A program made the position numbers and the translations under genes. DNA of 64,000 nucleotides from contig CASDSM010000016.1 of assembly GCA_949283375.1 (NCBI GenBank), positions 1-64,000 on the forward strand. Reading direction: 5' to 3'. Under the pieces are notes generated by a model. It was not told the DNA's origin. It did no database searches and saw only the letters and a list, made by a program, of their open reading frames with translations. This stretch comes from an uncultured Eubacteriales bacterium. Lineage in GTDB: Bacteria > Bacillota > Clostridia > Oscillospirales > Oscillospiraceae. Positions 11,884-27,549 of this stretch are shown in pieces. Each line of letters starts with the position of its first letter. Position 1 is the stretch's first letter.

Positions 11884-12336
11884 GTGAATCTGGAAAGCAA
11901 ACCCACCGCGGCCTGTCCGGCCGGACAGGGGCAGCAGCCCTGCTGCGCGCCGCTCGCCACGCCCTATGTCCCCTTCCAGCAGCAGGGGGAGCAGCGGTAT
12001 ACCCGCGCTGAGGCGCTGGCTCAGGGGACGCTGTTTCCCGGGCTGAACCTGCCGTTTCATCTGCAGGTCGACGGCAAGCCGGTGCCCAAGACGCCGCTCT
12101 CCGAGCTGCAGGCCATCTGCTTTGTCGTGCAGGAGCTGGGGCTCTATCTGGACACGCACCCGAACGACGAGGAGGCATTCGCGCTCTATCAGCGCTATGC
12201 CGTTCTGGCGCGGGAGGGGCGCGAACGCTATGTGGAGCGCTATGGCCCTCTGATGCAGACGGACGCCGCTCTGGCGGAGCGGTATCAATGGCTCCAGAAT
12301 CCCTGGCCGTGGGACATTGAGGAGGGCAAAGCGTAA
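11884..12336 (+). CDS. fused CotJA-CotJB spore coat protein
   Basis: The product is 150 residues from a GTG start behind AGGAGG; the ATG two bases earlier is out of frame and meets a stop at once. Residues about 20-65 resemble CotJA (TPYVPFQQQGEQRYTRAEAL, then QGTLFPGLNLPF). Residues about 70-150 are CotJB (LGLYLDTHPNDEEAF, ERYGPLM, NPWPW). In Bacillus these are two proteins of about 80 and 87 residues from adjacent genes. Here one uninterrupted frame joins them by a short linker (GKPVPKTPLSE). They are coat/under-coat components that act with the Mn-catalase CotJC. The stop overlaps the cotJC start as TAATG, so translation is coupled. Confidence 0.8.
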   Translation: MNLESKPTAACPAGQGQQPCCAPLATPYVPFQQQGEQRYTRAEALAQGTLFPGLNLPFHLQVDGKPVPKTPLSELQAICFVVQELGLYLDTHPNDEEAFALYQRYAVLAREGRERYVERYGPLMQTDAALAERYQWLQNPWPWDIEEGKA

Positions 12337-12520
12337 TGTTTCTCTATGACAAAAAATTGCAGTATCCGGTCAAGATCAAAAACACCAACCCGCGCCTGGC
12401 CTCCATTATCATCAGTCAGTATGGAGGGCCAGACGGCGAACTCGGCGCCTCTCTGCGCTATCTCAGCCAGCGCTACGCGATGCCCTATCCCGAGCTGAAG
12501 GGTCTGCTCACCGATATCGG
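12336..12520 (+). pseudogene. cotJC: cotJC 5' part (Mn-catalase spore coat protein, interrupted)
   Basis: The 5' fragment of cotJC starts at the ATG overlapping the cotJAB stop. It codes for MFLYDKKLQYPVK through GLLTDIG, with the metal ligand Glu35 in DGELGAS. Similarity to CotJC stops abruptly after GLLTDIGT, exactly where family members continue EE..HLE. The continuation is found at 27138-27549. If unexcised, the frame runs on with 43 or so unrelated residues (antisense to the end of cobA-hemD) to a stop at 12656, giving a dead 106-residue protein. After joining to the 3' part the protein is 198 residues, against 189 in B. subtilis. I regard it as a developmentally split gene, not a decayed one, because neither half has any lesion. 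Confidence 0.9.
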
Positions 12521-12542
12521 TACATCGGCGCAGCAATGGAAC
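12497..12542 (+). other. left attachment site of the cotJC intervening element
   Basis: The core GG is at 12519-12520. To the left is cotJC codon sequence; to the right is element DNA beginning TACATCGGCG. The right arm, joined to the element's other end, completes a dyad (GATGTA-GG-TACATC). The left arm, joined to 27138 onward, restores cotJC. GG is not self-complementary, so the two sites are oriented as direct repeats, which predicts deletion of the DNA between them rather than inversion. The limits given are 22 bp either side of the core, by analogy with serine-integrase sites. Confidence 0.75.
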
Positions 12543-12543
12543 C

Positions 12544-14025
12544 CTATCCCTGCTCGCGCGCCGCCTGAAGAAGGGACGAGAGCAGCCCCTCCCGGTCGCA
12601 GCGCGGGGCGAGCAGAAAGGGCGCGGCGCAGCGGCGCGCAAACGCCTCCCCCGTGACCGGCCCGATGCAGATGCAGCGCACACGGTCGGGAACCTCGCTG
12701 TGATGGGAGAAGAAGAGCTCCACCCCGCTTGCGCTGGCAAAGAGCAGGAAATCGGCCTCTGCCAGCCGACCGGCGGCATGCGCAGCGGTCTGCGGGTCGT
12801 CCCGGAGCCGGTAGAGCGGGATCTCCGTTACCGGAAACCGTCCGGCCAGCATCTGACGCAGGCCGGACGAGGCGTGGGCGGACCGGAGCAGAAGGACCGG
12901 TATGCCAGCCGGGACGGTCTCGAGGAGCGCCTCACCCAGCGCCGCCGTGGTGTAGATCTCCGGGCAGAGGTCTGGATGGATGCCGTATTCGGCGAGGGCC
13001 TTCCCTGTCCCGGGGCCGACCACGGCGAAGCGGCAGCGGTGCAGGCGCCGCAGGTCGATCTCTGCCTCCCGCAGATGGCTCCAGAGCATCCGGACGCCAT
13101 TGGGGCTGGTCAGGACCAGCCATCGCTCCTGCCCGTCCGCCAGGGTCTGCCAGGGGAAGGCTGTCTCGACCGGCTCGATGGCGGAGCGCTGCGCCCGGAA
13201 GACAGACGCGCCGAGCGACAGAAGGGCGGGCGTCAGCTCGCGCGCGAGGGCATCTGTCCCCGTCAGAGCGACGGTGCGGCCGTCCAGCGGCAGTCCGCTC
13301 CTGTTTCCGGTCAGCGCGAGCGCCGCGACCGGACCGATCACAGTCACGGCGGGCGGCTGTATTCCGGCGGCCGCAGCGCGCGCGGGCAGCTCAGAGAGAG
13401 GGGCGCGCACGGCCATCGGATGGGGGGCATTTCCGCCGGAGAGGACAGCGGCAGGGACAGCGGGGTCCTTCCCGGCGCGAATCAGCTCCTCTGCCAGCTC
13501 GGGCAGGGCGTGCAGCCCCATCAGGAAGATCAGTGTCCCCTCCAGCGCGGCCAGCTCTCCCCAGCGGCCGCAGAGGCCCTGTGCGGTCTGCGCAGTGATG
13601 ACGTGAAAGCTCCGGCTCATGCCCCGGTGGGTGACGGGAATGCCCGCCTCCTCCGGGATCGCGATGGCGGAGGAGATGCCCGGGACCAGCTCATAGGGAA
13701 TGCCCGTCCCGTCCAGCGCGAGCGCCTCCTCTCCGCCCCGGCCAAACACGAAGGGGTCTCCCCCCTTGAGGCGCACGACCTGCATGCCCTGACTGGCCCG
13801 GTCGATCAGAAGGCGGTTGATCTCCTCCTGCGGCAGGGCGCGCTTGCCATAGCGTTTGCCGGCATAGATCCGCTCCGCTTCGGGTGGGGCAGCATCGAGC
13901 AGCTCCGGGGCAATCAGGTCGTCATAGACCACCACATCGCAGGCTTGCAGCCGGTTCAGGCCGCGCAGCGTGATGAGGTCCGCCGCGCCGCAGCCCGCTC
14001 CGACCAGAGAGACCTTACCGCTCAT
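12544..14025 (-). CDS. cobA-hemD: uroporphyrinogen-III C-methyltransferase / uroporphyrinogen-III synthase fusion
   Basis: The product is 493 residues. The N-terminal half (about 1-245) is SUMT: GxGxGxxDLIT-type start (VGAGCGAADLITLRG), VVRLKGGDPFVFGRGGEE and PGISSA. It methylates uroporphyrinogen III twice with SAM to precorrin-2. The C-terminal half (about 250-493) is HemD-like (VVGPGTGKALAEYG, FASASGVELFF) and makes uroporphyrinogen III. Such fusions are common in clostridia. Its start overlaps the upstream precorrin-2 dehydrogenase stop as ATGA. Its stop is only 24 bp from the left crossover core, so the element border sits right behind it. With the next gene it supplies siroheme for the reductase at 17497-19035. 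Confidence 0.93.
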   Translation of the reverse strand: MSGKVSLVGAGCGAADLITLRGLNRLQACDVVVYDDLIAPELLDAAPPEAERIYAGKRYGKRALPQEEINRLLIDRASQGMQVVRLKGGDPFVFGRGGEEALALDGTGIPYELVPGISSAIAIPEEAGIPVTHRGMSRSFHVITAQTAQGLCGRWGELAALEGTLIFLMGLHALPELAEELIRAGKDPAVPAAVLSGGNAPHPMAVRAPLSELPARAAAAGIQPPAVTVIGPVAALALTGNRSGLPLDGRTVALTGTDALARELTPALLSLGASVFRAQRSAIEPVETAFPWQTLADGQERWLVLTSPNGVRMLWSHLREAEIDLRRLHRCRFAVVGPGTGKALAEYGIHPDLCPEIYTTAALGEALLETVPAGIPVLLLRSAHASSGLRQMLAGRFPVTEIPLYRLRDDPQTAAHAAGRLAEADFLLFASASGVELFFSHHSEVPDRVRCICIGPVTGEAFARRCAAPFLLAPRCDREGLLSSLLQAAREQG

Positions 14026-14648
14026 ACTTGACCTCCTTCAGCTTGAAAGGAAGATAAAATGACATCCTGTTCCTCCGGCTCCAGCGGACCGCCCTTTTCC
14101 AGACAGGCGGCGAAGAGGGCGGCATAGAGCGCCCGGCGCTTCTCCGCCGGGAACACCGAGCGGAGGGCAGGGCGCAGCGCGCCGAGACTGTCCAGAATCT
14201 CCCCCAGACGGGGCGGCAGCTGCGCTTGAAGCGACCGGCGCAGATGGGCGGCTGCGGTGGGGCTGGTCCCGCCGGTGGAGATGCCGATGCAGAGCGGCCC
14301 ATCACAGATCAGCGCGGGAAAATAGAAGGTGCACGCCTCCGGGTCGTCCACGACATTTACCGGGATGCCGCGCGTCTGGCAGAGAGCGGCGGCCTCCCGG
14401 TTGACAGAGGGCTGATCGGTGGCGGCGATGACGAAGGACTTCCCCTCCAGCAGCGCCTCCCGGAAGGAACCGGAAATCGTGCGGATGCCGGGCAGGCTGG
14501 AGAAAGCGGGGAGAAAGGTCTCGGAGACGACGGTCAGCTCCGGGCGGAAGGGCAGCAGCTGCTCCACCTTGCGCAGAGCGACTGTGCCTCCACCGATGAT
14601 CAGTCCCCGCCTCCCTTCCAGAGAGACAAAAAACGGGAAATAGGCCAT
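14022..14648 (-). CDS. precorrin-2 dehydrogenase / sirohydrochlorin ferrochelatase-like protein
   Basis: The 208-residue protein begins MAYFPFFVSLEGRRGLIIGGG, a Rossmann NAD-binding start, and continues VALRKVEQLLPF. FVIAATDQPSVN and VNVVDDPEACTFYFPA are typical of the CysG N-terminal/Met8p family. It oxidises precorrin-2 to sirohydrochlorin and in some members inserts iron. Whether this one chelates iron cannot be told, and no separate chelatase is seen in the window. It overlaps cobA-hemD by 4 bp and is 14 bp downstream of the transporter ATPase, so a single operon is likely. Confidence 0.9.
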   Translation of the reverse strand: MAYFPFFVSLEGRRGLIIGGGTVALRKVEQLLPFRPELTVVSETFLPAFSSLPGIRTISGSFREALLEGKSFVIAATDQPSVNREAAALCQTRGIPVNVVDDPEACTFYFPALICDGPLCIGISTGGTSPTAAAHLRRSLQAQLPPRLGEILDSLGALRPALRSVFPAEKRRALYAALFAACLEKGGPLEPEEQDVILSSFQAEGGQV

Positions 14649-14662
14649 GATATCCCTCCTGT

Positions 14663-15430
14663 CTATGGCGAGAGCGGCTTGCAGTAGTAATGCCAGCCGT
14701 CCTCCTCTGCGACCCGGCCGAGCCGGACGCCCAACGTCTGTTCCAGCAGCGCGCTTTGAAAGAGCTCCTCCGGCGCGCCGCTGGCGAGCAGACGCCCACC
14801 TGAGAGGAGAAACAACCGGTCCGCGCAGGGGAAGGCGAGGCTGAGGTCGTGCAGCACGAGGACAACGGCCCTCCCCTCCCCTGCCAGACGCCGGGCCAGA
14901 TGCATGGTCTCAAACTGATGGCGGATATCCAGATAGGTAGTTGGCTCATCCATCAGGAGGTACGGCGTCTGCTGGGCCAGCGCCATAGCGAGATAGACCT
15001 TCTGCCGCTGGCCCCCGCTCAGCCGGGGCAGAGGGAGGTCGGCCAGCTCCTCCGCGTCCAGCTGCCGCAGGGCGGCGCGGGCGATCTCATAGTCCTCCTG
15101 CCGGTAGCGCCGCGGGTATGAGAGATGGGGGAACCGCCCGTGCAGGACCATGCGCAGCGCAGAGATGCTGGGTACCGGGCGGTCCTGCGGCAGGTAGGCG
15201 ACCGTCTGTGCAAGCTGCCGGGCGTTGAGCGAATGGGCCGCGACGCCGTCCAGAAGCACTTCACCCGTCATGGCCGGGAGGAGGCGGGGAATGACGCGCA
15301 GGAGCGTGCTCTTTCCACAGCCGTTGGGGCCGAGCAGGACAGAGACCTCACCCCGGTGAAAGGTGAGGGAGAGATCGTGCAAAACCGTCCGCCCGCCATA
15401 GCCGGCGGAGAGCCGGTGCAGCTCAATCAC
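14663..15430 (-). CDS. ABC transporter ATP-binding protein, iron-siderophore/cobalamin type
   Basis: The 255-residue ATPase starts at GTG (VIELHRLSAGYGG), because the permease stop overlaps it by 8 bp. Walker A is GPNGCGKST, the signature LSGGQRQKVYLAMAL, Walker B LLMDEPTTYLDI and the H-loop His in VLHDLSLAF. The QDRPVPS Q-loop region and overall length are those of the FecE/BtuD/FhuC group. It powers the permease and binding protein encoded directly upstream. The substrate could be ferric siderophore, heme or cobalamin; sequence does not decide. Confidence 0.92.
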   Translation of the reverse strand: MIELHRLSAGYGGRTVLHDLSLTFHRGEVSVLLGPNGCGKSTLLRVIPRLLPAMTGEVLLDGVAAHSLNARQLAQTVAYLPQDRPVPSISALRMVLHGRFPHLSYPRRYRQEDYEIARAALRQLDAEELADLPLPRLSGGQRQKVYLAMALAQQTPYLLMDEPTTYLDIRHQFETMHLARRLAGEGRAVVLVLHDLSLAFPCADRLFLLSGGRLLASGAPEELFQSALLEQTLGVRLGRVAEEDGWHYYCKPLSP

Positions 15431-16421
15431 GGACCCGCCCCCCTCTCTGATGCAGCAGGAGCCAGAGGAAAAACGGCCCTCCGAGCAGGGCGAGCAGGAT
15501 GCCGACCGGCAGCTCATAGGGGGCAAACAGCAGCCGGGAGAGCAGGTCACAGCCGGTCAAAAAGGCCGCGCCGCCCAGCGCGGAGTGCAGCAACAGCGGT
15601 AGGCTCTCCTCGCCCGCGAGACGCCGCATGACGTGCGGCACGATCAGGCCGACAAAGCCGAGCAGTCCGGCAAAGCTGACGGCGGCCCCGGCCAACGCCG
15701 CGCTGAGCAGGAGCAGAAGCAGTCTCACCCGGCGCACGGGCAGGCCAAGGCTTTGCGCCGTCTCCCGGCCCAGAAGCAGAATATCCAGCTCCCCGGAGAG
15801 GAGGAGGACGGCGATCAGGGCGGGCAGAATGACGGCCGCCGCCGGGAGGACCCGCGACATCTGGAGATTGGAGAGTCCTCCGATGCGAAAGTCGGAGTAG
15901 CCGTTGAGCGCCTCCGGGACAAAGGTGAGCACGGCGTCAATGCCCGCGCCGCAGATGCTGGAGACGGCGATGCCGGAGAGGATCACCGTCATGCGCGAGG
16001 CCCCCGTCCGCTCGGAGAAGAGCAGGACAAAGAGCGCCCCGCCGAAGGCTCCGAGCAGGGCGGCAAAGGGGACGAGGGCCACCGCCTGCGGGGCAATGGC
16101 GCAGCAGAGTACGGTAGTCAGTCCGGCCCCCGCGTTGACGCCGATCACATTGGGCGCGGCCATGGGGTTTTGCAGCACCGCCTGGATCACCGCCCCGGAG
16201 ACCGCCAGCGCCGCCCCTGCCAGGAGACAGCCCAAGGTGCGCGGCAGACGGACGAGCAGGAGGATCTGTGCCTGCGCGGTGCCGCGCAGCTCTCCCAGGA
16301 GGACACGCAGGGTGTCGCCCGGAGAGACGGAGACCGGCCCCAGACAGAGGCTGAGCAGCCCGGCGAGGATGGCCAGCGCGGCCAGCAGGGGTGTCAGCCA
16401 GGGTCTTGCGCGCCTATTCAT
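15423..16421 (-). CDS. ABC transporter permease, FecCD family
   Basis: The product is 332 residues starting MNRRARPWLTPLL. It is hydrophobic throughout, with about nine to ten membrane segments. Family marks are VRLPRTLGCLLAGAALAVSGAVIQ, NPMAAPNVIGVNAGAG and GFVGLIVPHVMRR. It forms the homodimeric channel of a FecCD/BtuC-type importer. It overlaps the binding-protein gene by 8 bp and the ATPase gene by 8 bp, a tightly coupled three-gene transporter. Confidence 0.93.
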   Translation of the reverse strand: MNRRARPWLTPLLAALAILAGLLSLCLGPVSVSPGDTLRVLLGELRGTAQAQILLLVRLPRTLGCLLAGAALAVSGAVIQAVLQNPMAAPNVIGVNAGAGLTTVLCCAIAPQAVALVPFAALLGAFGGALFVLLFSERTGASRMTVILSGIAVSSICGAGIDAVLTFVPEALNGYSDFRIGGLSNLQMSRVLPAAAVILPALIAVLLLSGELDILLLGRETAQSLGLPVRRVRLLLLLLSAALAGAAVSFAGLLGFVGLIVPHVMRRLAGEESLPLLLHSALGGAAFLTGCDLLSRLLFAPYELPVGILLALLGGPFFLWLLLHQRGGRVRD

Positions 16422-17424
16422 AGAGCAGCTGCGCGAGATACTCATACGCCTCACCCCAGCGCGCGTTCGGCTTGAGGTTATAGAGGCGGTGGTCAAGCAC
16501 ATAGAAGCGTCCCTCCCGCACGGCGCGCAGCTCGCTCCAGGCGGGATTGGAGAGCAGCGTGGCCTCCAGCACCGCCTCGGCGTCCGTCGGGTCGGAACCC
16601 TGAAGGACGGCAAAGATGTAGTCCGGGTCCCCCGCAATGATGGCCTCCAGGCTCAGGTCCTCCAGCAGAGCGCTGTCGCCGTCGGCGATATTCACACAGC
16701 CGAGGTCGGCCAGCATCTCCCCGAGCACATTGTCCTCGCTCCCCTTCACCTTACAGCTCACGCCGGTGGCGCGGATGCAGAGCACAGTGGGGGCGGAGCC
16801 GTCCTGCTGGGCGATCGCCTCGTCCACCTGCAGGCGGACGTCTGTCCCGTAGGTCTCATAGCGCTCCGGACTGCCGGTGAGCCGGGTGCAGATCTCCAGC
16901 ATCCGAAGATAGTCGTCAAAGGTTTGGACATCGAAGTAGGCGACCGGGATGCCCGCCTCCTCAAACGTCTCCTCCAGCTCCAGATTGGCGGCGGTGTTGC
17001 AGCTGGCGAGGATGAAGTCCGGCTCGGCGTCGAGCAGGGCCTCCAGATTGGGGGACTTGATCGCGCCCAGGCGGACCACATCCTCAGAGAGCCCCAGCGC
17101 AAAGGAGGTCCAGGCGTCATCTGCGGCGGCGACAAGGGTGCTCTCTCCGCCTGCCAGGCACCAGACTTCGGCAAAGCTGCCAATCAGGGCGGCGACCCGC
17201 TCCGGCGGGGTGATGCACACCTCCCGTCCCAGATCGTCGGTGAAGGAGATCTCCTCCTCCGAGGGGGGCTCTGCGGTGTCTGCACCCTCCTCCTCCAAGG
17301 CGGACTCCGCGGTGTCCTTGTGCTCCTCCTGCGGGGCGGCATCGCCCGCGCCCTCTTCCTGCGGGATGGCATAACAGCCGGCCAGCAGCAGTAAGGCCAA
17401 CAGCAGCAGCCAGATACGTCTCAT
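16414..17424 (-). CDS. substrate-binding lipoprotein of the FecBCD-type transporter
   Basis: The 336-residue protein starts MRRIWLLLLALLLLAGC, a lipoprotein signal with lipobox LAGC (Cys at about 17). A long acidic linker follows (about 20-60). The periplasmic-binding (TroA-like) fold begins DDLGREVCITPPERVAAL, with NLEALLDAEPDFILAS and a GDPDYIFAV motif later. It captures a chelated metal or corrinoid outside the membrane and delivers it to the permease. Starts at 17448 and 17466 are possible, but only this one gives a clean signal peptide. It lies just after a terminator hairpin that follows the reductase gene. Confidence 0.9.
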   Translation of the reverse strand: MRRIWLLLLALLLLAGCYAIPQEEGAGDAAPQEEHKDTAESALEEEGADTAEPPSEEEISFTDDLGREVCITPPERVAALIGSFAEVWCLAGGESTLVAAADDAWTSFALGLSEDVVRLGAIKSPNLEALLDAEPDFILASCNTAANLELEETFEEAGIPVAYFDVQTFDDYLRMLEICTRLTGSPERYETYGTDVRLQVDEAIAQQDGSAPTVLCIRATGVSCKVKGSEDNVLGEMLADLGCVNIADGDSALLEDLSLEAIIAGDPDYIFAVLQGSDPTDAEAVLEATLLSNPAWSELRAVREGRFYVLDHRLYNLKPNARWGEAYEYLAQLLYE

Positions 17425-17450
17425 CGGTCCATCCTGTCCTTTCCTCATGC

Positions 17451-17487
17451 AAAAAGGCAGGCACATCAGAGCAGACGTGCCTGCCTT
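17451..17487 (-). terminator. terminator between the siroheme reductase and transporter genes
   Basis: An 11-bp perfect inverted repeat (17454-17464 with 17477-17487) is followed on the minus strand by five Us (17451-17455). It sits between the reductase stop (17497) and fecB-like start (17424). It may end the reductase mRNA or act as a partial attenuator before the transporter-siroheme operon. Confidence 0.75.
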
Positions 17488-17496
17488 GGTCCTCAG

Positions 17497-19035
17497 TTAC
17501 GAATACTTGGCCACGATGGCGCGGAGGTCCTCTCCGTGCTCAGCAGACCAGGCCTCCCAGCCCTGAGCGGCTGCGGCCTGGCCGAGCTCGACCAGCAGGG
17601 CGGGGATATCCCGCTCCAGGACGGTGGCCAGCGGCTCGCCGAAGCGGGCCTGTCCCACCGCATCGCTTCCGCCCAGGAACATCCGGAAAGCGGGCAGGGG
17701 CTGACGGTCCACCACGCGGACGCAGCCCTGGAAGCCGATCGCGGCGGCCTGATGGGCAGAGCAGCTCGACGGGCAGCCGGAGACGCAGATTTTCGGCAGG
17801 GCCCCGTCCGGCAGACCGGCGGTACGGACCGCCTCCACAGCGGCGCGCAGGAGGGACTGGCTGTCGCGCACTCCCTGCTGGCAGATGGAGGCGCCGATGC
17901 AGGCGACGCTGTACTCAAACGTGGTCTGTGCCCCGTCCTCCGTCGCAGCGAGCACCTTTTCCGCCTCTTCGGCGGTGAGATTGATGATGTAGATGGACTC
18001 GTCCGGCGTGATGCGGCACTCTGCCTCCGGCATCTCCCGGAGGAGCTGGTCCAGGACGGCAGGCTTGCCGGTGGGCAGGCAGCCGCCAATGGGGTGATAG
18101 CAGACGGCATAGAGGCCATCCTGCTTCTGCGCCGTCACGCGGGGATGGGAAATCGTGCCGCTCCCCTGCTTGGTGACCGGCGCGGGCGAGAGATGGAGGT
18201 CCAGCCCGCCGGCCTCCTTGGCCTGGGCGACGGCGGCCAGATAGGTCTCGCGGAGCTGATCGCCCAGTGTCTCCTGGAGATAGCGGGTGCGCGCCTTGCC
18301 GCGGTTCTGGTAGTTGCCGTGGGCGCAGAAGAGGTCCACCATCCCCTTGACGTAGTAGAGCACGTCCTCCGGAGCGACCGACTCCACGACGGGCACGCCC
18401 ATCCGGTGGTTGCTACCGAGGCCGCCGCAGATGCGCAGGGAGAAGGTCCCGTCCGGCTGCGCCTGGAAGCCCATGTCACGAAATGCGCTGTGTACCGAGT
18501 CGTCCGCCCCATTGCTGAAGGCGATCTTCAGTTTCCGCGGCATGCGGATATCCCGGCAGATGGAGAGAAGGTAGTCCGTCACCGCCTCCGCCCACGGCAT
18601 GACGTCAAACGCCTCACCCTGCTGGACGCCGGAGAGCGGGCTGGCCATCGCGTTGCGGGGGTTGTCGCCGCCGCCGCCCCGCGTCAGGATATGGCCATCG
18701 ATCGCGGCCTCCATGATCTCGGGCACCTGTGCGGCGGAGAGGTCGTGGAGCTGGATGGTCTGGCAGGTGGTCAGCTTGAGCAGGGAGACCTGCCATCTCT
18801 CCACCGCCCCGGCCAGGAAGTGCAGCCGCTCCGGCGTCAGAAGGCCGCCGGGCATCCGCAGGCGCAGCATGTGCTTTGAGGCGTCCCGCTGCGCGTAGGA
18901 CCCCATGCCGCCGGACATCCCCTTGTAGTCCTTGCGGCTGATCTCGCCCGCCTGAAAGGCGTTCAGCTTCTCGGAAAAGCTGGCGATCTCGTCGCGGAAG
19001 GTGGAGATCCACTGCTCATTGACTCTCATTGACAT
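17497..19035 (-). CDS. siroheme-dependent sulfite/nitrite reductase
   Basis: The 512-residue protein has two ferredoxin-like half-domains and two siroheme/4Fe-4S domains. The cluster cysteines are visible as CIGASICQQG and, further on, CVSGCPSSC (pattern CX5C...CX3C). RGGGGDNPRNAMASPLSG is the typical substrate/siroheme-binding stretch. It catalyses six-electron reduction of sulfite to sulfide or nitrite to ammonia. The family (NirA/Sir) cannot be split by eye. Siroheme-making genes lie downstream on the same strand, which fits. It probably works in assimilation in the cytoplasm. Met3 of the start (MSMRVNEQ) is an alternative start. Confidence 0.9.
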   Translation of the reverse strand: MSMRVNEQWISTFRDEIASFSEKLNAFQAGEISRKDYKGMSGGMGSYAQRDASKHMLRLRMPGGLLTPERLHFLAGAVERWQVSLLKLTTCQTIQLHDLSAAQVPEIMEAAIDGHILTRGGGGDNPRNAMASPLSGVQQGEAFDVMPWAEAVTDYLLSICRDIRMPRKLKIAFSNGADDSVHSAFRDMGFQAQPDGTFSLRICGGLGSNHRMGVPVVESVAPEDVLYYVKGMVDLFCAHGNYQNRGKARTRYLQETLGDQLRETYLAAVAQAKEAGGLDLHLSPAPVTKQGSGTISHPRVTAQKQDGLYAVCYHPIGGCLPTGKPAVLDQLLREMPEAECRITPDESIYIINLTAEEAEKVLAATEDGAQTTFEYSVACIGASICQQGVRDSQSLLRAAVEAVRTAGLPDGALPKICVSGCPSSCSAHQAAAIGFQGCVRVVDRQPLPAFRMFLGGSDAVGQARFGEPLATVLERDIPALLVELGQAAAAQGWEAWSAEHGEDLRAIVAKYS

Positions 19036-19109
19036 CCGCTCCCATACATTGAGATGATAAGATGATTATACTACGCTGCACCCCGGAAGTCCAGCTGCGC
19101 AGGATGTTT

Positions 19110-19988: not shown

Positions 19989-20041
19989 GGAAACAATTCC
20001 CCCAAACCATGTGAAATGCCGCAGAAAAGCGGAAATAAAGG

Positions 20042-20070
20042 TTGAATATCTGCACGAAATAAATTATAAT
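20042..20070 (+). promoter_or_regulatory. sigma-A promoter of the PfkB kinase gene
   Basis: TTGAAT (20042-20047), a 17-bp spacer and TATAAT (20065-20070) form a near-consensus vegetative promoter 59 bp before the kinase start. It lies in an AT-rich divergent region shared with the nuclease gene. Confidence 0.8.
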
Positions 20071-20128
20071 ACAGTTATAGAAATGTACCGTATAAAATAG
20101 AACCGGCATCTGCAAAGGAGGATACGCT

Positions 20129-21217: not shown

Positions 21218-21500
21218 CACAATCGAACAAAATCTGCGATTTTGTTCGAAAAATTCGGCCGACCCGCACCCCAAGGGCACTTTTTCGCCGCCGTTGGCGG
21301 CTCGGGCGCGCGCCCCTTCGGGGCACACTCCCGGCCTCCCTGTGTTTTTGGGCCGGTACAACAAGGTGAATTGCCCCGCAGGGGCAAGAGGAGGCCCCTT
21401 GGGGGTGCCCATCCCAAAAACGAGATTGCACTTTATTTTGTTGCTGCGCAACAAAACTCCTGCGGAGGGCTCCAGAACTTTTAGCCTATATTGGAAATCT
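21218..21500. other. hairpin-rich intergenic region
   Basis: About 280 bp lie between two convergent kinase genes with no plausible gene. The region is a run of dyads. A 10-bp stem sits at 21224-21233 with 21239-21248 (CGAACAAAAT...ATTTTGTTCG). Short GC stems follow (GCCGCCGTTGGCGGC, GCCCCTTCGGGGC, TTGCCCCGCAGGGGCAA). A 9-bp stem at 21436-21456 reads TTTTGTTGC-TGC-GCAACAAAA. It may be a terminator cluster or a dispersed intergenic repeat. The first dyad resembles the one at 8351-8374. Confidence 0.6.
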
Positions 21501-21523
21501 CAAAACATATTTTTTCGACAGTT

Positions 21524-21546
21524 TGTGCCCTGACGGGACCTCCGTC
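21524..21546 (-). terminator. terminator hairpin after the second PfkB gene
   Basis: CCCTGACGG and CCGTCAGGG form a 9-bp stem overlapping the end of the minus-strand kinase gene. The stem is clear but the U-tract is weak, so this is a tentative call. Confidence 0.45.
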
Positions 21547-22510
21547 AGGGCAGTTTTTCTGCTGCCCAGACGGCCAGCGCTCCGGGCGGAAATTCCTCTG
21601 TCCAGCGCACCGCTCCGGTGGAGGCAACCGCCCGGGCGCCGCAGGCGTTGGCAAAGCGGGCGCACTCCGCCGCCGGCCGACCGCGGGTCAGGGCATAGAG
21701 AAAGCCGGCGGCAAAGCTGTCCCCCGCTCCGGTGGTGTCCCGGCAGACGGCGTCCGGGACGGCGGGGACCCAAGCGCCGCGGCCATCCTCGAGCAGATAG
21801 CAGCCGCGCGCGCCGCATTTGACGGCGACGCAGCGGACGCCTGCCCTCCAGAGCGCCCCGGCGGCGTCCTCCGGCCGATCCATTCCGGTGAGCGCCATCG
21901 CCTCAGAGTCGTTGGGGAGCAGATAGTCGATCAGGGGGAGGACCTCTCTCAGGTCCTCCAGCCGCTCTCCGCGCTTGGGCCGGGTGAGGTCGGCACAGAC
22001 GGTCAGTCCCTGCAGCTTCGCCGCGTGAAACAGGGTGAAGAGCTCCGGCGGCCCCAGATGCGGAGAGACGAAGATGCTCGCCAGAGAGAGAAATCCCGCC
22101 TCTGGCGGGAAGGTGAGCGAGAGGTCCTCCAGCCGCAGGGCGCGCAGACTGCCGCGCGGGTTGGTGAGAAAGGAGCGCTCGCCGCCCTCCTGCACCAGAA
22201 CGACGTTGACGCCGGTGGCCAGTCCTGACCGGACGGCGCGCTCAGCGAGCGCGATGCCGCAGCGGCGGCAGTGCCGGAGGACCATCTCCCCTGCCGCGTC
22301 CGCGCCGAGGACCGTCTGCAATCGGACGTCCGCGCCGAGGCGGGCAAGGACGGTGGCCTCATTCAGAGCGTCGCCTCCGACAGTGAGGGCGATCTCCTCC
22401 ACGGGCATGGAGCCGGACCGAAAGACCTCCGGCCCCGCCGGGCGGACCAGCACATCCAGAATGGCGGCGCCCACCAGGACGACGGCGGGCCGGGGAACAG
22501 ACACAGGCAC
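21545..22510 (-). CDS. PfkB-family carbohydrate kinase
   Basis: The 321-residue protein has the ribokinase fold: VVLVGAAILDVLV at the N-terminus, a GGDALNEATVLARLGADV di-Gly region and the signature DTTGAGDSFAAGFLYAL around residue 260. It phosphorylates a sugar or nucleoside with ATP, and the exact substrate is not readable. A cytidine deaminase gene lies 21 bp upstream on the same strand, which may hint at nucleoside or ribose salvage (inference). Confidence 0.85.
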   Translation of the reverse strand: MPVSVPRPAVVLVGAAILDVLVRPAGPEVFRSGSMPVEEIALTVGGDALNEATVLARLGADVRLQTVLGADAAGEMVLRHCRRCGIALAERAVRSGLATGVNVVLVQEGGERSFLTNPRGSLRALRLEDLSLTFPPEAGFLSLASIFVSPHLGPPELFTLFHAAKLQGLTVCADLTRPKRGERLEDLREVLPLIDYLLPNDSEAMALTGMDRPEDAAGALWRAGVRCVAVKCGARGCYLLEDGRGAWVPAVPDAVCRDTTGAGDSFAAGFLYALTRGRPAAECARFANACGARAVASTGAVRWTEEFPPGALAVWAAEKLP

Positions 22511-22531
22511 GGGAACGACCTCCTCTCTCCG

Positions 22532-22960
22532 TCAATTTGTATTGGGGGAAGACATCCCGGACGGGAAGCGCGCCTCGCCCCACCAGGCGGGGAGCAGCTC
22601 TCGCAGGGTGACGGTCCTCCGGGTGTCATAGTCCAGGAGGATCTGCATCTCTCCATTCTCCCGGTCCAGCTGCATCAGCACCTCCCGGCAGGCCCCGCAG
22701 GGCGTGCCCGGCGTGCCGTCCGGCAGGAGTGCGACCAGCTTTTCCGCCTGCTGCTCCCCGTGCGTGATCATGTTGGCGATGGCGTTTCGCTCTGCGCACA
22801 TGCCGAGAGAGCAGGCGGTGTCGATGCAGACGCCCACATAGACGTTGCCCGCCCTGGTCAGCAGCGCGGCGGCCACGCCGCCCGCCTCCACAAAGGGAGA
22901 GAGGACACGGGGGTTCTGCACCTCCCGCGCCGCCTGACAGAGCATCTCCCAGGCATCCAT
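22532..22960 (-). CDS. cdd: cytidine deaminase
   Basis: The 142-residue protein carries the zinc-site motifs CAERNAIANMI (zinc Cys and catalytic Glu) and PCGACREVLMQ (two zinc Cys). Size matches tetrameric cytidine deaminases that convert cytidine and deoxycytidine to uridines in pyrimidine salvage. The C-terminal tail after WWGEARFP is a little longer than usual. It lies between a GyrI-like gene and a PfkB kinase, all minus strand and tightly spaced. Confidence 0.9.
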   Translation of the reverse strand: MDAWEMLCQAAREVQNPRVLSPFVEAGGVAAALLTRAGNVYVGVCIDTACSLGMCAERNAIANMITHGEQQAEKLVALLPDGTPGTPCGACREVLMQLDRENGEMQILLDYDTRRTVTLRELLPAWWGEARFPSGMSSPNTN

Positions 22961-23608
22961 CTAGTCTTCCTCCCGGCTGAGCTTACGGACAGGGTGGCGG
23001 ATGACGGTTTTCCGCCGCTCCGGCGGGACGCGGCGCGCGTCGCTGAGATAGATTTCGTGGTGATAGCGGTCCGGCGAGAGGTCGGGCGCATAGCCCTCCC
23101 GCGCGGCAAAGGCGTGCATGGCCTCCACCGTCTCCGGCTCGGCGTCATAGGGGCCGATGTGCATGCACTGGACGCAGAGTCCCTCGGTATAGGTCAGATA
23201 CTCCACCGGAGAGAAGTCCATCTGCTTCTTGCGCGCGGCCTCGGCCACCGCCCAGTCAAAGTCCGACCGGCGCACAAAGTCCGGCAGGCGGATCAGGGAG
23301 ATCCACTGAAAGTCCTCCTTGCGGGCGTAGTCGATGCCGGAGACGCCCTCCTGCCACCAGAAGCCCTCCAGCGGCGGCACCACATAGTCAAAGTACCCCT
23401 CGATCGGACGGCTGCCCTTTTTGCTCATCTTGATGGTGAAGGCGACGCCGTAGAGCAGGCTGATCGCCGCCTGATAGGCCCCGTCCGGCGCGTTGGGGTC
23501 TCCCCTGCCGCGCACGGCGAGAAAGCGCATCTCCGGCACGTCCACGAGGACGGGGGTGCGGGGCGGCAGATAGAACTCCCGGTACTCTTTCTTATAGTCA
23601 AAGGGCAT
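22961..23608 (-). CDS. GyrI-like small-molecule-binding domain protein
   Basis: The 215-residue protein begins MPFDYKKEYREFYLPPR, with PVLVDVPEMRFLAVRGRGDPN and SLLYGVAFTIKMSKKG. These match the stand-alone GyrI-like (SOUL/AraC-effector-like) proteins of Firmicutes. These bind small molecules or hydrolyse cyclopropanoid-type toxins in some cases; the role here is unknown. Its stop abuts the cytidine deaminase start directly, with zero intergenic bases. No signal peptide or DNA-binding domain is seen. Confidence 0.75.
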   Translation of the reverse strand: MPFDYKKEYREFYLPPRTPVLVDVPEMRFLAVRGRGDPNAPDGAYQAAISLLYGVAFTIKMSKKGSRPIEGYFDYVVPPLEGFWWQEGVSGIDYARKEDFQWISLIRLPDFVRRSDFDWAVAEAARKKQMDFSPVEYLTYTEGLCVQCMHIGPYDAEPETVEAMHAFAAREGYAPDLSPDRYHHEIYLSDARRVPPERRKTVIRHPVRKLSREED

Positions 23609-23620
23609 TTTGTCTCCTCC

Positions 23621-24364
23621 TCAGGTCCGAAGAAATACAAATTGACTGCTGTCTGAACGGGCCTCATCGAAGCGGAAGCCCAGCCGGTCGAAGCTTTTGA
23701 GCTGCTCCGGACTGGTGCTCTGCCGCTCGGCCAGATAGCGTACCATCTCGCCGCGGGCCATCTTGCAGAGCGTCCCCTTCTCCACCACTTTCCCGTTCAG
23801 CGCTTCGCCGAAGATACAGGTGAGAAAGCGCACCGAGCCGGGCAGATGCCGGCTGACGGAGAGGCTGTACTCTTTGGAGGCCAGATTCACAATGCATCCG
23901 GTCTCCGCGCAGAGCCGGGACGCGAGGCGGTCTCCCCAGTAGTGATAGAGGTCTCTCGCGCCGTTGACGCTCAATTTTGCCTGCATCTCCAGCCGGTAGG
24001 GCGTCACGCCGTCAAACGGCCGCAGGAGGCCATAAAAGCCGGACAGGATGCGCAAATGCTCCTGAATATAGTCAAATTCCGCATCTGTAAACACGCCGGG
24101 CGCCATATGCTGGTACTGAATGCCGTCGTAGGCCAGCAGCGCGGGCGTCAGGCGGCGGCGCAGGTCCATCTGCTCCAGCCGCTCCACGTTCTGCCGGGCG
24201 ATGGAGTCGCTGCACTTCCAGAGCTTTTTGAGTTCCGGATAGGACATCGACCGCATGGACGCACAGAGCGCCTCTGTCTGGGGGAGAAACACGGGAAGGG
24301 TCCGCCAGGGTAGGCTGTCCGTGTCCACCCGCATCTTCTTGGCGGGGGAGATGATGATGCGCAT
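23621..24364 (-). CDS. yaaA: YaaA-family peroxide stress protein
   Basis: The 247-residue product starts MRIIISPAKKM, the family hallmark, and continues with YDGIQYQHMAP and LSGFYGLLRPFDGVTPYRLEM, both characteristic. In E. coli YaaA limits free iron and DNA damage after H2O2. The start at 24364 is one base from the rhodanese stop. The upstream neighbours are a peroxiredoxin and a rhodanese lipoprotein, giving an oxidative-stress flavoured operon. Confidence 0.92.
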   Translation of the reverse strand: MRIIISPAKKMRVDTDSLPWRTLPVFLPQTEALCASMRSMSYPELKKLWKCSDSIARQNVERLEQMDLRRRLTPALLAYDGIQYQHMAPGVFTDAEFDYIQEHLRILSGFYGLLRPFDGVTPYRLEMQAKLSVNGARDLYHYWGDRLASRLCAETGCIVNLASKEYSLSVSRHLPGSVRFLTCIFGEALNGKVVEKGTLCKMARGEMVRYLAERQSTSPEQLKSFDRLGFRFDEARSDSSQFVFLRT

Positions 24365-24365
24365 C

Positions 24366-24746
24366 TCACTCCACCTCATAGGGCCAGGTGTTGATCCCTC
24401 CGAATTCGTAGACGGCGGTGTAGCCCAGCTCCGCGAGAGCGGCGGACGCCGTCTTGCTGCGGTTGCCGCTGCGGCAGTAGACCAGTACGGTCATGTCAGT
24501 TGCCGGGATGACGTCTGCCGCCGTCTCCTCCGTGATGGTGCCCACGGGCAGCAGGACAGCGCCGGGGATGTGCCCGGCGTCATACTCCTCCTGCTCGCGC
24601 ACATCCAGAACGATGACCTCCTGGGTGTCCATCATCTCTTTTGCCTCTTCCTGGCTGATTTGGCGGTAAGCCGCCTCGGAGGAGGCGCCTGCGCATCCAC
24701 TCAGCGCCAGCAGCAGGGCCAGCAGCAGCGGGACGAGGCGTCTCAT
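24366..24746 (-). CDS. rhodanese-domain lipoprotein
   Basis: The 126-residue product starts [18 protein letters not shown], a lipoprotein signal with lipobox LSGC. A single rhodanese domain has the active-site loop CRSGNRS (Cys at about 94) and the N-terminal [20 protein letters not shown]. Rhodaneses move sulfane sulfur from donors such as thiosulfate to thiols. Its membrane anchoring places it outside the cell. It overlaps the peroxiredoxin stop by 4 bp. Confidence 0.9.
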
Positions 24747-25210
24747 GCTTCCTCTCCGCTCAGATAGCGCAGGAGGTCTGCCGCGTTGGTGTCCGGCTTG
24801 ACCTTGGGCATGACCTTCTCGATCATCCCCTGCTCGTCAATGAGGAAGGTGGTGCGCACCACGCCCATGCTCACCTTGCCATAGAGCTTCTTCTCCTGCC
24901 AGACGCCGTAGGCCTCGATCGCCTGCCGCTCCGGGTCGGAGAGCAGGAGAAACGGCAGCTCCTGCTTCTGGGCAAACCTCTGGTGAGAGGCCACCGAGTC
25001 CTTGCTCACGCCGATCACGGCGACGTCTCTGGCCTGAAACTCCCCGTAAGCCGCGGCAAAGGCGCAGGCCTGACGGGTACAGCCGGGGGTATTGTCCTTG
25101 GGATAGAAGTAGAGCACGACCTTCCGCCCCAGAAAATCAGAGAGACGAACTGTTTTTCCGTCCTTGTCCGGGAGGGCGAAATCCGGCGCTTTCATGCCAA
25201 CTTCCAACAT
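24743..25210 (-). CDS. bcp: thiol peroxidase, Bcp/PrxQ-type peroxiredoxin
   Basis: The 155-residue product starts [18 protein letters not shown]. The peroxidatic Cys is in [14 protein letters not shown], and the second Cys five residues later is the typical PrxQ resolving Cys. GVSKDS and VRTTFLID are also family marks. It reduces peroxides using thioredoxin. It is the first gene of the bcp-rhodanese-yaaA group and is preceded by a sigma-A-like promoter. Confidence 0.93.
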
Positions 25211-25272
25211 ATTCCATTCTCCTTTGCACAGATATGGGGCCGAGTCAGGCTGCGGCGCCCCTTCTGAGGCTT

Positions 25273-25301
25273 AGTGTAGCATACTTTGGCAATAGACGCA
25301 A
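25273..25301 (-). promoter_or_regulatory. sigma-A-like promoter of bcp
   Basis: On the minus strand TTGCGT (25296-25301), a 17-bp spacer and TACACT (25273-25278) lie about 63 bp before the bcp start and just after the recombinase stop. The match is moderate. Confidence 0.5.
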
Positions 25302-25320
25302 CGAAAAAGCCGCTCTGCCG

Positions 25321-26838
25321 TCAGCCGGTAAAGTGGAAGACATGGGGGAGTTTTGTGAGGCGAAGCTCGATATGGCGGTCCGGGAATACGGTCAAGCCAT
25401 CCAGCATGGACCGGTAAAATACCCTGCTCTCCGTCTCCGCGCACAAAATGGACTTCACCGCAGAGCGGATGTCCTCTCGCAGCGCGGCGGGGCTCCGCCC
25501 GTCCTCGCGGCGCTGGCAGGTTTCCCATTGACGGCGCAGGCGGTCCAGCTCATCATCATATCTCTGACACATGGCCTGCATGTCGGAGACCGTGATCTCA
25601 TGGGCAAAATAGCTGTCCAGAACGGCCTCCCGCCTCTGCCGTATCCGCTCCATCCCGGCAGAGATGTGCCGCGCAGATTCTCCGGGGGCCTCCTCTGAGG
25701 AGCGGACCGCCGCCAGCGCCAGCGCCGTCACATTGCCGATGACGGACTCTGTGTCCATGGAGAGACTTCGGATGGCGGCCCTCAGCATCTCCAGAGCGTC
25801 GTCGTCCCGGACAAGTCTCCCGATCTGGCAGGAGGCCCTGCCGGCGGCGGCCCTCCCGCAGCGCCAGCGGCGTATTTTGCGCCCATCCGGAAGGTATTTG
25901 AACCGTCCGACAAAGCTGCCGCCGCACGCGCCGCAGCGGATCTTGCCGGAGAAGAGATAGCGGTTGGAGTGTCCGTCATTGCCCGTCCTGTGCGCCCCAC
26001 TGTGCCGCAGCCGCTCCTGCGCGAGTGCCCAGAGCTCCCGGCTGACGATCGGCTCATGATGATTCCGGATGGTCACGAGCGGCACGGCGCCCTGATTTCT
26101 GCGCTTCTCATGGGTCAGGTAATCGGGGGTATAGGTCTTTTTCTGTATCAGATCGCCCACATACTTCTCGTTTTTCAGGATTTTGACGACAGTGCTGGCG
26201 CTCCAGCGGGGGTTGCCCCGGCTGGTGCGGTATCCCTCTGCGCTGAGGAACCGCGCGATCTGGCCCGCGCTGAGCTCCTCCAGGGCGTATTTGTGGAAGA
26301 TGAGCCGGACCAGTTCGGCCCCCTCGGGGTTGACAGTCAGCCGCCCGCCCGCAGCGTCGTAGCCGAGCAGCGATGGGCCGAACACCACCCCGCGCTCCAT
26401 CTGGCGGGTTTGCCCCCAGACCACCCGGCTGGAGGTCTTGCGGCTCTCCTCCTGCGCGATGGAGGCCATGATGCTCAGGTACATCTCCGCGTCCCCTCTC
26501 AGCGTGTTGATGCCGTCCAGAAGAAATCGGACGCCGACACCGATGGCCTTCAGCTCGCGTGTGTAGGAGATGGTGTCCAGAATGTTCCGGGAGAAGCGGC
26601 TGACCTCCTTGGTGAGGATGAGCTGGAACTTGCCCGCGTAGGCGTCGCGGATCATCCGGTTGAACTGCACACGCCGCCTGGTGCTGGTACCGGTGATGCC
26701 CTCGTCGGCGTAGACCTCATACAGCTCCCAATCGGGGTGCTGATCGATGTACGCCCGGAAATAGCGCTGCTGCGCCTGGAAGGAGTTGGCCTGATCGTCC
26801 CTGTCGGTGGAGACGCGGCAATAGCTGGCGACCTTCAC
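25321..26838 (-). CDS. large serine recombinase (SpoIVCA-like), element excisionase/integrase
   Basis: The 505-residue protein starts at GTG and overlaps the upstream small gene's TGA as GTGA. The resolvase domain has the catalytic Ser in YCRVSTDRDDQ (about residue 10) and the Arg-rich EVSRFSRN region. A recombinase domain follows (about 165-270), then a zinc ribbon (CGACGG ... CGRAAAGRASC, about 310-350) and a C-terminal coiled region. B. subtilis SpoIVCA, which excises skin, has the same length and domain order. As the only recombinase in the interrupting DNA, and 299 bp from the right core, it is the obvious enzyme for rejoining cotJC. A role in integration is equally expected. Confidence 0.92.
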   Translation of the reverse strand: MKVASYCRVSTDRDDQANSFQAQQRYFRAYIDQHPDWELYEVYADEGITGTSTRRRVQFNRMIRDAYAGKFQLILTKEVSRFSRNILDTISYTRELKAIGVGVRFLLDGINTLRGDAEMYLSIMASIAQEESRKTSSRVVWGQTRQMERGVVFGPSLLGYDAAGGRLTVNPEGAELVRLIFHKYALEELSAGQIARFLSAEGYRTSRGNPRWSASTVVKILKNEKYVGDLIQKKTYTPDYLTHEKRRNQGAVPLVTIRNHHEPIVSRELWALAQERLRHSGAHRTGNDGHSNRYLFSGKIRCGACGGSFVGRFKYLPDGRKIRRWRCGRAAAGRASCQIGRLVRDDDALEMLRAAIRSLSMDTESVIGNVTALALAAVRSSEEAPGESARHISAGMERIRQRREAVLDSYFAHEITVSDMQAMCQRYDDELDRLRRQWETCQRREDGRSPAALREDIRSAVKSILCAETESRVFYRSMLDGLTVFPDRHIELRLTKLPHVFHFTG

Positions 26839-27053
26839 GGCACATCCTCCTGTTGTCTCCGCCTCGCCTGCTCCTGGCGCTGCCGTTTGAGGCCCTCCGA
26901 TGCAGAGCGGTATTCTGCGGCGTCCAGTCTCCCCTGCTCCCGGAGGGCCAGCAGGAGTGCGCCTTGCAGGTGATGAAGAAATTCGCCGTGCGTCTCCTCC
27001 GTGATTTTCTCGTTATAGTCGATGCGCTGGAGCTGTGCAAACCGCATTTTCAT
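26835..27053 (-). CDS. SHOCT-like small protein upstream of the recombinase (candidate directionality factor)
   Basis: The 72-residue product starts MKMRFAQLQRIDYNEKITEE behind GAGGAGG. The middle (LLLALREQGRLDAAEYRSAS) resembles the SHOCT motif (short helical, L..L...G.I...EY). Similar short SHOCT proteins commonly precede serine recombinase genes in clostridial elements. Translation is coupled to the recombinase by a 4-bp overlap. It could be a recombination directionality factor or a DNA-binding accessory; that is inference from size and position only. A longer frame starts at 27074. Confidence 0.65.
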   Translation of the reverse strand: MKMRFAQLQRIDYNEKITEETHGEFLHHLQGALLLALREQGRLDAAEYRSASEGLKRQRQEQARRRQQEDVP

Positions 27054-27074
27054 ATTCCGCCTCCTCTCCTGCAC

Positions 27075-27103
27075 AGCCTATGCGCGGAAGGGGCGGTTCT
27101 GAC
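27075..27103 (-). promoter_or_regulatory. possible sigma-E promoter of the recombinase operon
   Basis: On the minus strand GTCAGAA (27097-27103), a 14-bp spacer and CATAGGCT (27075-27082) partly fit the sigma-E consensus (-10 CATACAnT, 6 of 8). It lies 22 bp before the small-gene start and inside the right border. If real it would express the recombinase in the mother cell. The match is imperfect. Confidence 0.35.
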
Positions 27104-27113
27104 CTCCCGGCGG

Positions 27114-27159
27114 GTCTCATTCTGATGCGGATGTAGGGACAGAGGAGCTGGGACATCTG
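27114..27159 (+). other. right attachment site of the cotJC intervening element
   Basis: The core GG is at 27136-27137. To the left is element DNA ending GCGGATGTA; to the right is cotJC sequence GACAGAGGAGCTGGGACAT. The left arm paired with 12521-12542 gives 14 complementary positions of 22 around GG, including six perfect inner pairs. The right arm with cotJC upstream sequence gives a weaker dyad (about 10 of 18), as expected for an attB. A shared ACA lies one base to the right of the core at both ends, so the exact crossover could be shifted by a few bases without changing the protein. Confidence 0.75.
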
Positions 27160-27549
27160 GAGATGGTGGCCTCCATCGTCCATCAGCTCACCCGGAAGCT
27201 CTCTGACCAGCAGATCCAGGACAGCGCCTTTGCGCCCTATTTCGTCGACCACACCACCGGCGTCTACCCCACCGCGGCCTCCGGCTTTCCCTGGTCCGCC
27301 GCGAGCATCGGCGTGAAGGGGGATGTGATCTGCGACCTGACGGAGGATCTGGCGGCGGAGCAGAAGGCGAGAGTGACCTATGACAACATCCTCCGCCTCT
27401 CGGACGACCCGGATGTGAACGATGTCATCCGCTTCCTGCGCGAGCGGGAGATCGTCCACTTCCAGCGCTTCGGCGAGGCGCTGGAGCTTGCCAAGGAGAA
27501 GATGAACCAGAAGAACGTCTATTTCACCAATCCGGCGTTTGACCGCTGA
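27138..27549 (+). pseudogene. cotJC: cotJC 3' part (Mn-catalase spore coat protein, interrupted)
   Basis: The 3' portion of cotJC has no ribosome site or plausible start at its beginning. It encodes EELGHLEMVASIV onward, with VDHTTGVYPTAASGFPW, DLTEDLAAEQKAR, DDPDVNDVIRFL and REREIVHF, all CotJC landmarks. In the joined protein the metal ligands are Glu65, His68, Glu136 and His169, complementing Glu35 in the 5' part. The last codon is followed by TGA at 27547-27549. There are no frameshifts or early stops. On its own the first ATG is at 27163 and would miss two ligands, so this fragment cannot be functional without excision. Confidence 0.9.

Follow-up and report, generated by a model that had tools for sequence, protein, structure and literature searches.

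Several sporulation genes are split by DNA elements that carry their own recombination unit. Those named as targets are sigK, spoVFB, spoVR, spsM, gerE and yabG (PMC6957869, PMC10747680, PMC4191935; the papers cited in this text are represented by excerpts, and statements about them apply to those parts). The skin element in sigK of Bacillus subtilis and Clostridioides difficile has a serine recombinase and a small directionality factor under mother-cell control, and its excision rebuilds sigK (PMC5025042). The gin element of Bacillus cereus ATCC10987 is a non-phage interval in gerE, a mother-cell sporulation gene, which is rebuilt during sporulation by serine recombinases with the accessory factor GirX (PMC5595907). 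Yin in yabG, vfbin in spoVFB, vrin in spoVR and SP-beta in spsM also split sporulation genes (PMC10747680, PMC4191935, PMC6957869). The heterocyst elements in nifD and nifH are excised in a cell without descendants and occupy several positions per gene, with six variants in nifH and four in nifD (PMC4874684). The present analysis concerns cotJC, a spore-coat manganese (Mn) catalase gene, in a 64,000-nucleotide stretch from an uncultured gut spore-former, a Eubacteriales bacterium of the Oscillospiraceae (assembly GCA_949283375.1, contig CASDSM010000016.1, positions 1 to 64,000; the whole stretch is called the window). The gene is interrupted at 12519/27136 by 14,617 bp. The interval is very probably a skin-like gene-intervening element, without recognisable phage genes, that is excised in the mother cell during sporulation.

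The cotJC element resembles skin in its serine recombinase, in a candidate directionality factor and in the excision it would undergo, but its target is a coat catalase rather than a sigma factor, and its small gene, whose end overlaps the start of the recombinase gene, is unlike any family searched. Like gin, it is a non-phage interval in a presumed mother-cell sporulation gene. Gin, however, is 28.6 kb long, has three recombinases and lies in a regulator gene of one strain (PMC5595907), whereas the cotJC element has one recombinase with a small upstream gene, lies in the gene of a coat enzyme and occurs in many species. Yin, vfbin, vrin and SP-beta differ in their target genes and in that one element is described per gene. 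The heterocyst elements differ in belonging to cyanobacteria and nitrogen fixation, and in using both serine and tyrosine recombinases (PMC4874684). No report of cotJC as a target was found among the matches listed in a literature search made without preprints and most subscription papers. The C. difficile prophage phi027 adjoins a cotJC homologue and, in the part of the source available, is not reported as lying inside it (PMC11222575). If the proposal is correct, an enzyme gene is added to the six targets named above, it is hit in a large share of the sampled gut spore-formers, and there are several excision sites in one target gene.

The split gene and its attachment sites

The preliminary description had noted two lesion-free halves of cotJC on the same strand, 14.6 kb apart, and this observation is confirmed. 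The Pfam Mn_catalase profile matches the 5' part over profile positions 1-64 (12336-12530, E 2e-18) and the 3' part over positions 60-199 (27127-27546, E 2.2e-32). There is no stop codon within either part, and no further Mn_catalase match was found across the 43 contigs of the source genome. Both parts match the same solved protein, 6j42, at residues 1-62 and 60-176. The GG of the Gly62 codon is present at both junctions, and fusion of the parts at this common GG gives an intact frame of 198 residues, as had been predicted. E35, E65, H68, E136 and H169 stand where the preliminary description placed them in the joined protein, and are presumably the metal ligands. As in skin-like elements, the interval lies inside a sporulation gene, both parts of which are intact and in frame, and has its own site-specific recombinase.

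Junctions from related loci were aligned on the Gly62 codon, so the presence of a GG core in 82 of 83 left junctions and all 36 right junctions is partly built in, and symmetry was therefore taken as the independent test. For the 23 elements with both ends, attP was reconstructed from the two junctions as excision would yield it. With the centre at GG, a mean of 16.6 of 25 arm positions pair, compared with 4.7-7.6 when the centre is shifted by 1-6 bases (means over the same 23), 8.0 for attB and 6.8 for shuffled arms. In the attP reconstructed for the window, 16 of 25 positions are paired about GG (P 1.2e-4 by shuffling), and 4 to 9 when the centre is moved by 1-6 bases. The reconstructed attP has its centre of symmetry precisely at GG, which is what a serine integrase would be expected to show: there are two inverted arms about a 2-bp core, and that core is found in both attL and attR. 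The position of the split at Gly62 is beyond chance, because the attP of the window is palindromic about that GG and the same codon is the break point in 25 other elements with both ends known.

All 26 elements with both ends known, which span 3.1-16 kb (median 6.4 kb), rejoin at the aligned codon to GTEEL. Eight of them have or seem to have an additional cotJC break (L034, L100, L101, L109, L118, L133, L136 and L163), and in L144 the 3' frame extends to 263 codons.

The genes, joined in silico, were also compared for selection, as the ratio of non-synonymous to synonymous change (dN/dS). Between the window and a relative, G010, in which cotJC is also split, dN/dS is 0.028 at a dS of 1.13, where synonymous sites are near saturation; the two halves taken alone give 0.036 and 0.023. 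The pair L101/L109 gives 0.011 at a dS of 0.44 and the pair L145/L134 gives 0.019. Because the elements within each of these two pairs are similar, their divergence more likely postdates insertion. Over 190 pairs of joined split genes (20 of the 26 genes) the median of the corresponding pN/pS is 0.23 and the maximum 0.47. Neither lesions nor relaxed selection, as would mark a decayed insertion, were seen in the split gene of the window. Decayed halves in relatives, which the preliminary description had named as evidence against excision, are absent where both halves lie on one locus, all of these having open frames, and ten matches in the wider survey (below) do report stops. A long-dead gene would not be expected to show such selection, which suggests that the split cotJC is in use, and the simplest upkeep of a gene that is never whole would be for it to be made whole in a cell leaving no descendants.

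Recombinases, promoter motif and further break points

The claim that the interval ends in its own serine recombinase holds: Pfam matched Resolvase, Recombinase and zinc-ribbon domains in the protein. Ser10, presumably the catalytic serine, is invariant among seven aligned recombinases, each taken from a locus that has a cotJC piece. Their alignment was used as the query in a scan of one genome per species. Of the 561 candidates that passed, the best 80 were retained. Most of these come from Clostridia, many of them under the labels Oscillospiraceae or Lachnospiraceae, and some are from named isolates. A cotJC piece was found at 74 of these 80 loci. Five of the remaining six have the recombinase open reading frame (ORF) and no piece on the stretch examined, and L127 is without a full ORF. 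The query was chosen for linkage to cotJC and the scan keeps near relatives, so the informative part is the contrast between near and far recombinases. Over all loci examined, with the duplicates L001, L002 and L084 removed ahead of counting, a piece accompanies 94 of 102 recombinases scoring at least 400 bits against that of the window, 5 of 10 at 300-400 bits, none of 158 at 100-300 bits and one of four below 100 bits; this last is the recombinase of G068, beside another break. The Gly62 site (site A) is used by a whole recombinase clade, clade A.

The recombinase start is overlapped by a small gene, whose start was taken at ATG 27053 (the ORF list begins at GTG 27074). Its preliminary label, SHOCT, was not borne out, as Pfam gave no match at E 1. 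The sole NCBIfam match was far under its cut-off, no structural match was obtained in a fold search at E <= 0.001, and no convincing match among Protein Data Bank sequences. The model is a two-helix hairpin with a mean pLDDT (predicted local distance difference test) of 89. Relatives of the gene lie 5' of 82 of 90 clade-A recombinases linked to cotJC and of 7 of 8 clade-A recombinases with no piece on the stretch examined, compared with 2 of 9 recombinases at 300-400 bits, 5 of 162 lower-scoring ones and none of 39 from the other three lineages. The small protein probably acts as the directionality factor.

A promoter motif of mother-cell type precedes the small gene. CATAnnnT occurs in the 160 nucleotides (nt) 5' of the start in 57 of 75 cases, and on the reverse strand in 12; shuffling gives a mean of 11 and a maximum of 19 over 200 shuffles. 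The motif is 20-39 nt ahead of the start in 50 of 59 matches, and an A is present at -18 in 94% of 55 aligned cases. From this motif we infer mother-cell expression of the recombinase operon. In B. subtilis cotJC is a sigma-E gene (PMC3416734). In C. difficile the cotCB and cotD operons are lower in a sigK mutant, sigma-E and sigma-K promoters have common -10 sequences (PMC3789822), and the skin directionality factor is controlled by sigma-E and SpoIIID (PMC5025042). No split sigK was seen among the ten sigma-type matches of the source genome, none of which exceeds the spore_sigmaK cut-off; the best of them, of uncertain identity as sigK, extends uninterrupted over 2-225 of 227.

At two further points, near residue 32 (site C) and near residue 134 (site B), cotJC is likewise interrupted, and a separate recombinase lineage lies beside the junction of each site. 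All 10 clade-B recombinases scoring at least 500 bits and all 18 of clade C at 290 bits or more lie beside their own junction, in loci mostly chosen for cotJC or clade A, a choice that biases the counts in favour of cotJC. Near residue 177 there is a fourth break, with a conserved arm common to L100, L101, L109 and L149. G057 and G216 have an additional recombinase type at a position slightly displaced from site A. The latter has four colinear cotJC pieces over about 70 kb, with four recombinases, and G063, G068 and G182 have three pieces each. In a FastTree tree of 182 recombinase rows, site B forms one clade, site C requires two changes and site A twelve, against 60 after shuffling; the site-A changes partly reflect rows scored 'none' (no piece on the stretch examined), branches are long, and light weight is placed on the tree.

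Genomes of the order at least 90% complete were surveyed, and 165 of 197 have an Mn-catalase match. Sixty-six with a weak best match (weaker than about 1e-44) were hand-picked from the table, and 65 of these have pieces that terminate at one of the sites, A in 36 genomes, B in 25 and C in 17. The figure of 65 is an upper one, since contig ends can give single pieces and ten matches report internal stops; G198, with only a divergent 15-77 match, was excluded from the tally. Pieces at more than one site occur in 12 genomes by the script's count, which includes G141, where pieces 2 and 89 bp apart are probably a frameshifted gene. Where pieces share a contig and strand, their order is colinear in 23 of 24 sets, the exception being G129, and cotJC pieces were also seen in other orders of the class. 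It appears rather likely that cotJC is a hub for such elements, with at least four recurrent breaks (at about 32, 62, 134 and 177), three of them with their own recombinase lineages, in up to a third of the order's sampled species. A copy with up to three or four elements would yield the enzyme only if several independent excisions were all completed in a single mother cell. With excision confined to a cell that dies, the intervals would have become a refuge for ordinary and even widespread metabolic genes.

Two observations touch on these sites. In G216 (L253-L256) the interval at site A is 49 kb long and has a recombinase at each end, the two being of different types; these represent either tandem elements or a two-recombinase element. 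In G001 (L015) an L048-type recombinase ends 49 bp 5' of a near-whole cotJC whose alignment begins at residue 4; the gene start may be a further target site.

Proposed excision and its alternatives

Mother-cell excision of a skin-like element, as proposed in the preliminary description, is supported in silico by the recombinase, the palindromic attP, the in-frame join, purifying selection, the promoter motif and intact relatives. Judging from the junctions and relatives, the recombinase would have inserted the element at an attB in the Gly62 codon. During sporulation the mother cell would make the recombinase and the small upstream protein, the probable directionality factor, from the sigma-E/K-type promoter. 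Recombination of attL with attR at GG would then release the interval as a circle, and the rebuilt cotJC would be read into the spore-coat Mn catalase. Because the mother cell lyses, the interval would not be lost from the line of descent, and the metabolic genes inside it would be kept. We infer, from the genomes, that excision takes place in sporulating cells.

Several points count against this account. Other members of the family have a more regular attP than the window, and exact attP-type patterns, a strict and weak test, gave no match to an excised circle, an attP junction or a rebuilt junction in IMG/VR or in the loci examined. The selection measured between the window and G010 may partly predate insertion. 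The small protein is a candidate directionality factor by its position and conservation. The -35 region of the window resembles known ones only loosely, the 75 upstream regions include many near-copies that are not independent, and the starts of the 75 small genes were chosen by a script favouring ribosome-binding sites. The excess is weaker in a broader count, which takes in every CATAnnnT up to 400 nt from the recombinase, at 62 forward versus 33 reverse of 90 (low-scoring recombinases give 30 forward versus 91 reverse of 162). Finally, in the closed, one-contig genome G129 (L271, L272) the cotJC halves lie 675 kb apart and in the wrong order, with a window-type recombinase (334 bits) beside the 3' half. 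Simple excision could not restore this gene, whose halves were apparently parted by a chromosomal rearrangement.

An ordinary integrative element at a conserved site in cotJC, with the spore catalase dispensable, the gene off and no developmental control, is one alternative. Specificity for a single gene is found in many serine integrases (PMC10083194), and C. difficile cotCB and cotD mutants have less catalase activity and no significant coat defect (PMC11222575). This alternative is nevertheless quite unlikely, given the strong purifying selection on both split halves, the open parts that rejoin in frame and the mother-cell-type motif at the recombinase operon. That motif also counts against the unlikely case in which excision is real but occurs in vegetative cells as well, switching cotJC between split and intact. 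The yin element of Clostridium botulinum is indeed excised at all time points (PMC10747680), but in the window such switching would lose genes of the interval that have a single match in the source genome, CobA-HemD and YaaA.

Conservation of both parts would also be expected of a split protein, or of joining at the RNA or protein level without excision of DNA. This is very unlikely, because it leaves unexplained why the recombinase lineage tracks the break point, and in 15 of the 26 elements the unjoined 5' part reaches a stop codon no more than 10 codons beyond the core, although the window has 45 further codons there. An assembly artefact might be suspected of a 43-contig assembly with many metagenome bins among its relatives, but can scarcely be credited. 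The same split is present in isolate genomes, at L130 (Pseudoflavonifractor capillosus An386a) and L141 (P. phocaeensis An901), cultured gut commensals with both halves on one contig, and at L148, and also in the one-contig genome G223. This speaks against the mis-assembly considered in the preliminary description, and G010 has the same locus with a different, 5-kb element.

If mother-cell excision takes place as proposed, many genomes may seem to have a damaged cotJC, or none, and yet probably make the protein. The loci are also a source of recombinases whose attachment sites can be read, and of a candidate directionality-factor family. Why such elements persist becomes testable, as does whether intervals lost only in a dying cell are safe places for host genes.

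Relatives at the locus and content of the interval

A match to the Mn-catalase family was found in 54 of 59 related genomes, mostly as full-length cotJC and in several as pieces broken at the same point. The relatives with an intact gene at this locus that the preliminary description had called for exist: G003 and G019 have a whole cotJC next to the same radA flank. Synteny between G010 and the window extends over most of the 64 kb, and the G010 element, at the same cotJC codon, has three cargo genes in common with that of the window; its recombinase is 46% identical to the window's and lies at the opposite end. The CotJA-CotJB fusion upstream of cotJC (Table 1) has a homologous 149-amino-acid (aa) frame at the equivalent place in G010 (L033).

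Table 1. Features of the split cotJC locus, in window coordinates
Feature	Position	Strand	Basis
CotJA-CotJB fusion gene, immediately 5' of cotJC	11884-12336	+	Pfam CotJA and CotJB in one 150-aa frame
cotJC 5' part, residues 1-61 and core GG of codon 62	12336-12520	+	Pfam Mn_catalase 1-64; join
attL: B arm, core GG (12519-12520), P' arm	12495-12545	+	family P' consensus TACaGAaGgntCanaATGgnaCc
Cargo: CobA-HemD fusion, only match in source genome	12544-14025	-	
Cargo: siroheme synthase-type dehydrogenase	14022-14648	-	
Cargo: FecCD-type ABC transporter (ATPase, permease, binding protein)	14663-17466	-	
Cargo: nitrite/sulfite reductase-like protein	17497-19035	-	
Cargo: DNA/RNA non-specific endonuclease, common to G010 element	19110-19988	-	
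Cargo: PfkB kinase	20129-21217	+	relatives at 79-86% identity in genus
Cargo: second PfkB kinase, common to G010 element	21545-22510	-	
Cargo: cytidine deaminase-like, GyrI-like, YaaA, rhodanese, Bcp peroxiredoxin	22532-25210	-	
Large serine recombinase, 505 aa, clade A	25321-26838	-	Resolvase, Recombinase, Zn-ribbon domains; target link
Small helical protein overlapping recombinase start, candidate recombination directionality factor, 72 aa	26835-27053	-	conservation, two-helix model
Mother-cell-type promoter motif: -10 CATAGGCT (27082-27075), upstream GGTCAG (27104-27099)	27075-27104	-	
attR: P arm, core GG (27136-27137), B' arm	27111-27161	+	junction alignment and symmetry
cotJC 3' part, residues 62-198	27136-27549	+	Pfam Mn_catalase 60-199; join

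The cargo genes of Table 1 are named after their Pfam matches. The first PfkB kinase of the interval has relatives in 16 of 31 other genus members, each away from cotJC: on a different contig or, in G012, about 150 kb from the nearest cotJC piece. It is inside the cotJC element in G000 and G010 (94% identical). Because the kinase is found outside cotJC in genus members, a host gene seems to lie inside the interval. YaaA (E up to 1e-20) was found in the genus sample only in G012, within the cotJC element together with a peroxiredoxin, and in G025. Cargo blocks are common to the window (12544-25210), L034 and L033 (the nuclease and kinases; YaaA and the peroxiredoxin), with recombinases that differ and are not at the same end, as if recombination units had been exchanged under kept cargo in these three congeners.

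The guanine plus cytosine (GC) content of the interval is within the range of the remaining window. GC skew at 16000-27000 is about zero or negative through much of the interval, and positive in the flanks. A repeat search (20 of at least 60 repeat families) gave no convincing internal att copy, and a nested or tandem insertion within the window was rejected.

No structural PHROG was matched by ten interval proteins of the window, a scan that left out the small ORFs and the deaminase-like, rhodanese, Bcp and binding proteins; the best named match was an ABC transporter. With no phage structural match among these ten, a prophage reading of the window was rejected. In the 25 other elements, where 124 of 136 cargo ORFs were scanned (12 small ones being left out), none of the 25 PHROG families listed, of 66, is structural, and each Pfam family occurs in at most three elements. 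Some IMG/VR contigs with clade-A or clade-C recombinases do have terminase, portal, tail and endolysin matches (44 of 57 ORFs scanned), and actual phages probably use cotJC sites as well. On the IMG/VR contigs L184, L185 and L187 a clade-A recombinase lies near the viral contig end, with a terminase-like match on L184; they are perhaps real prophages trimmed at cotJC.

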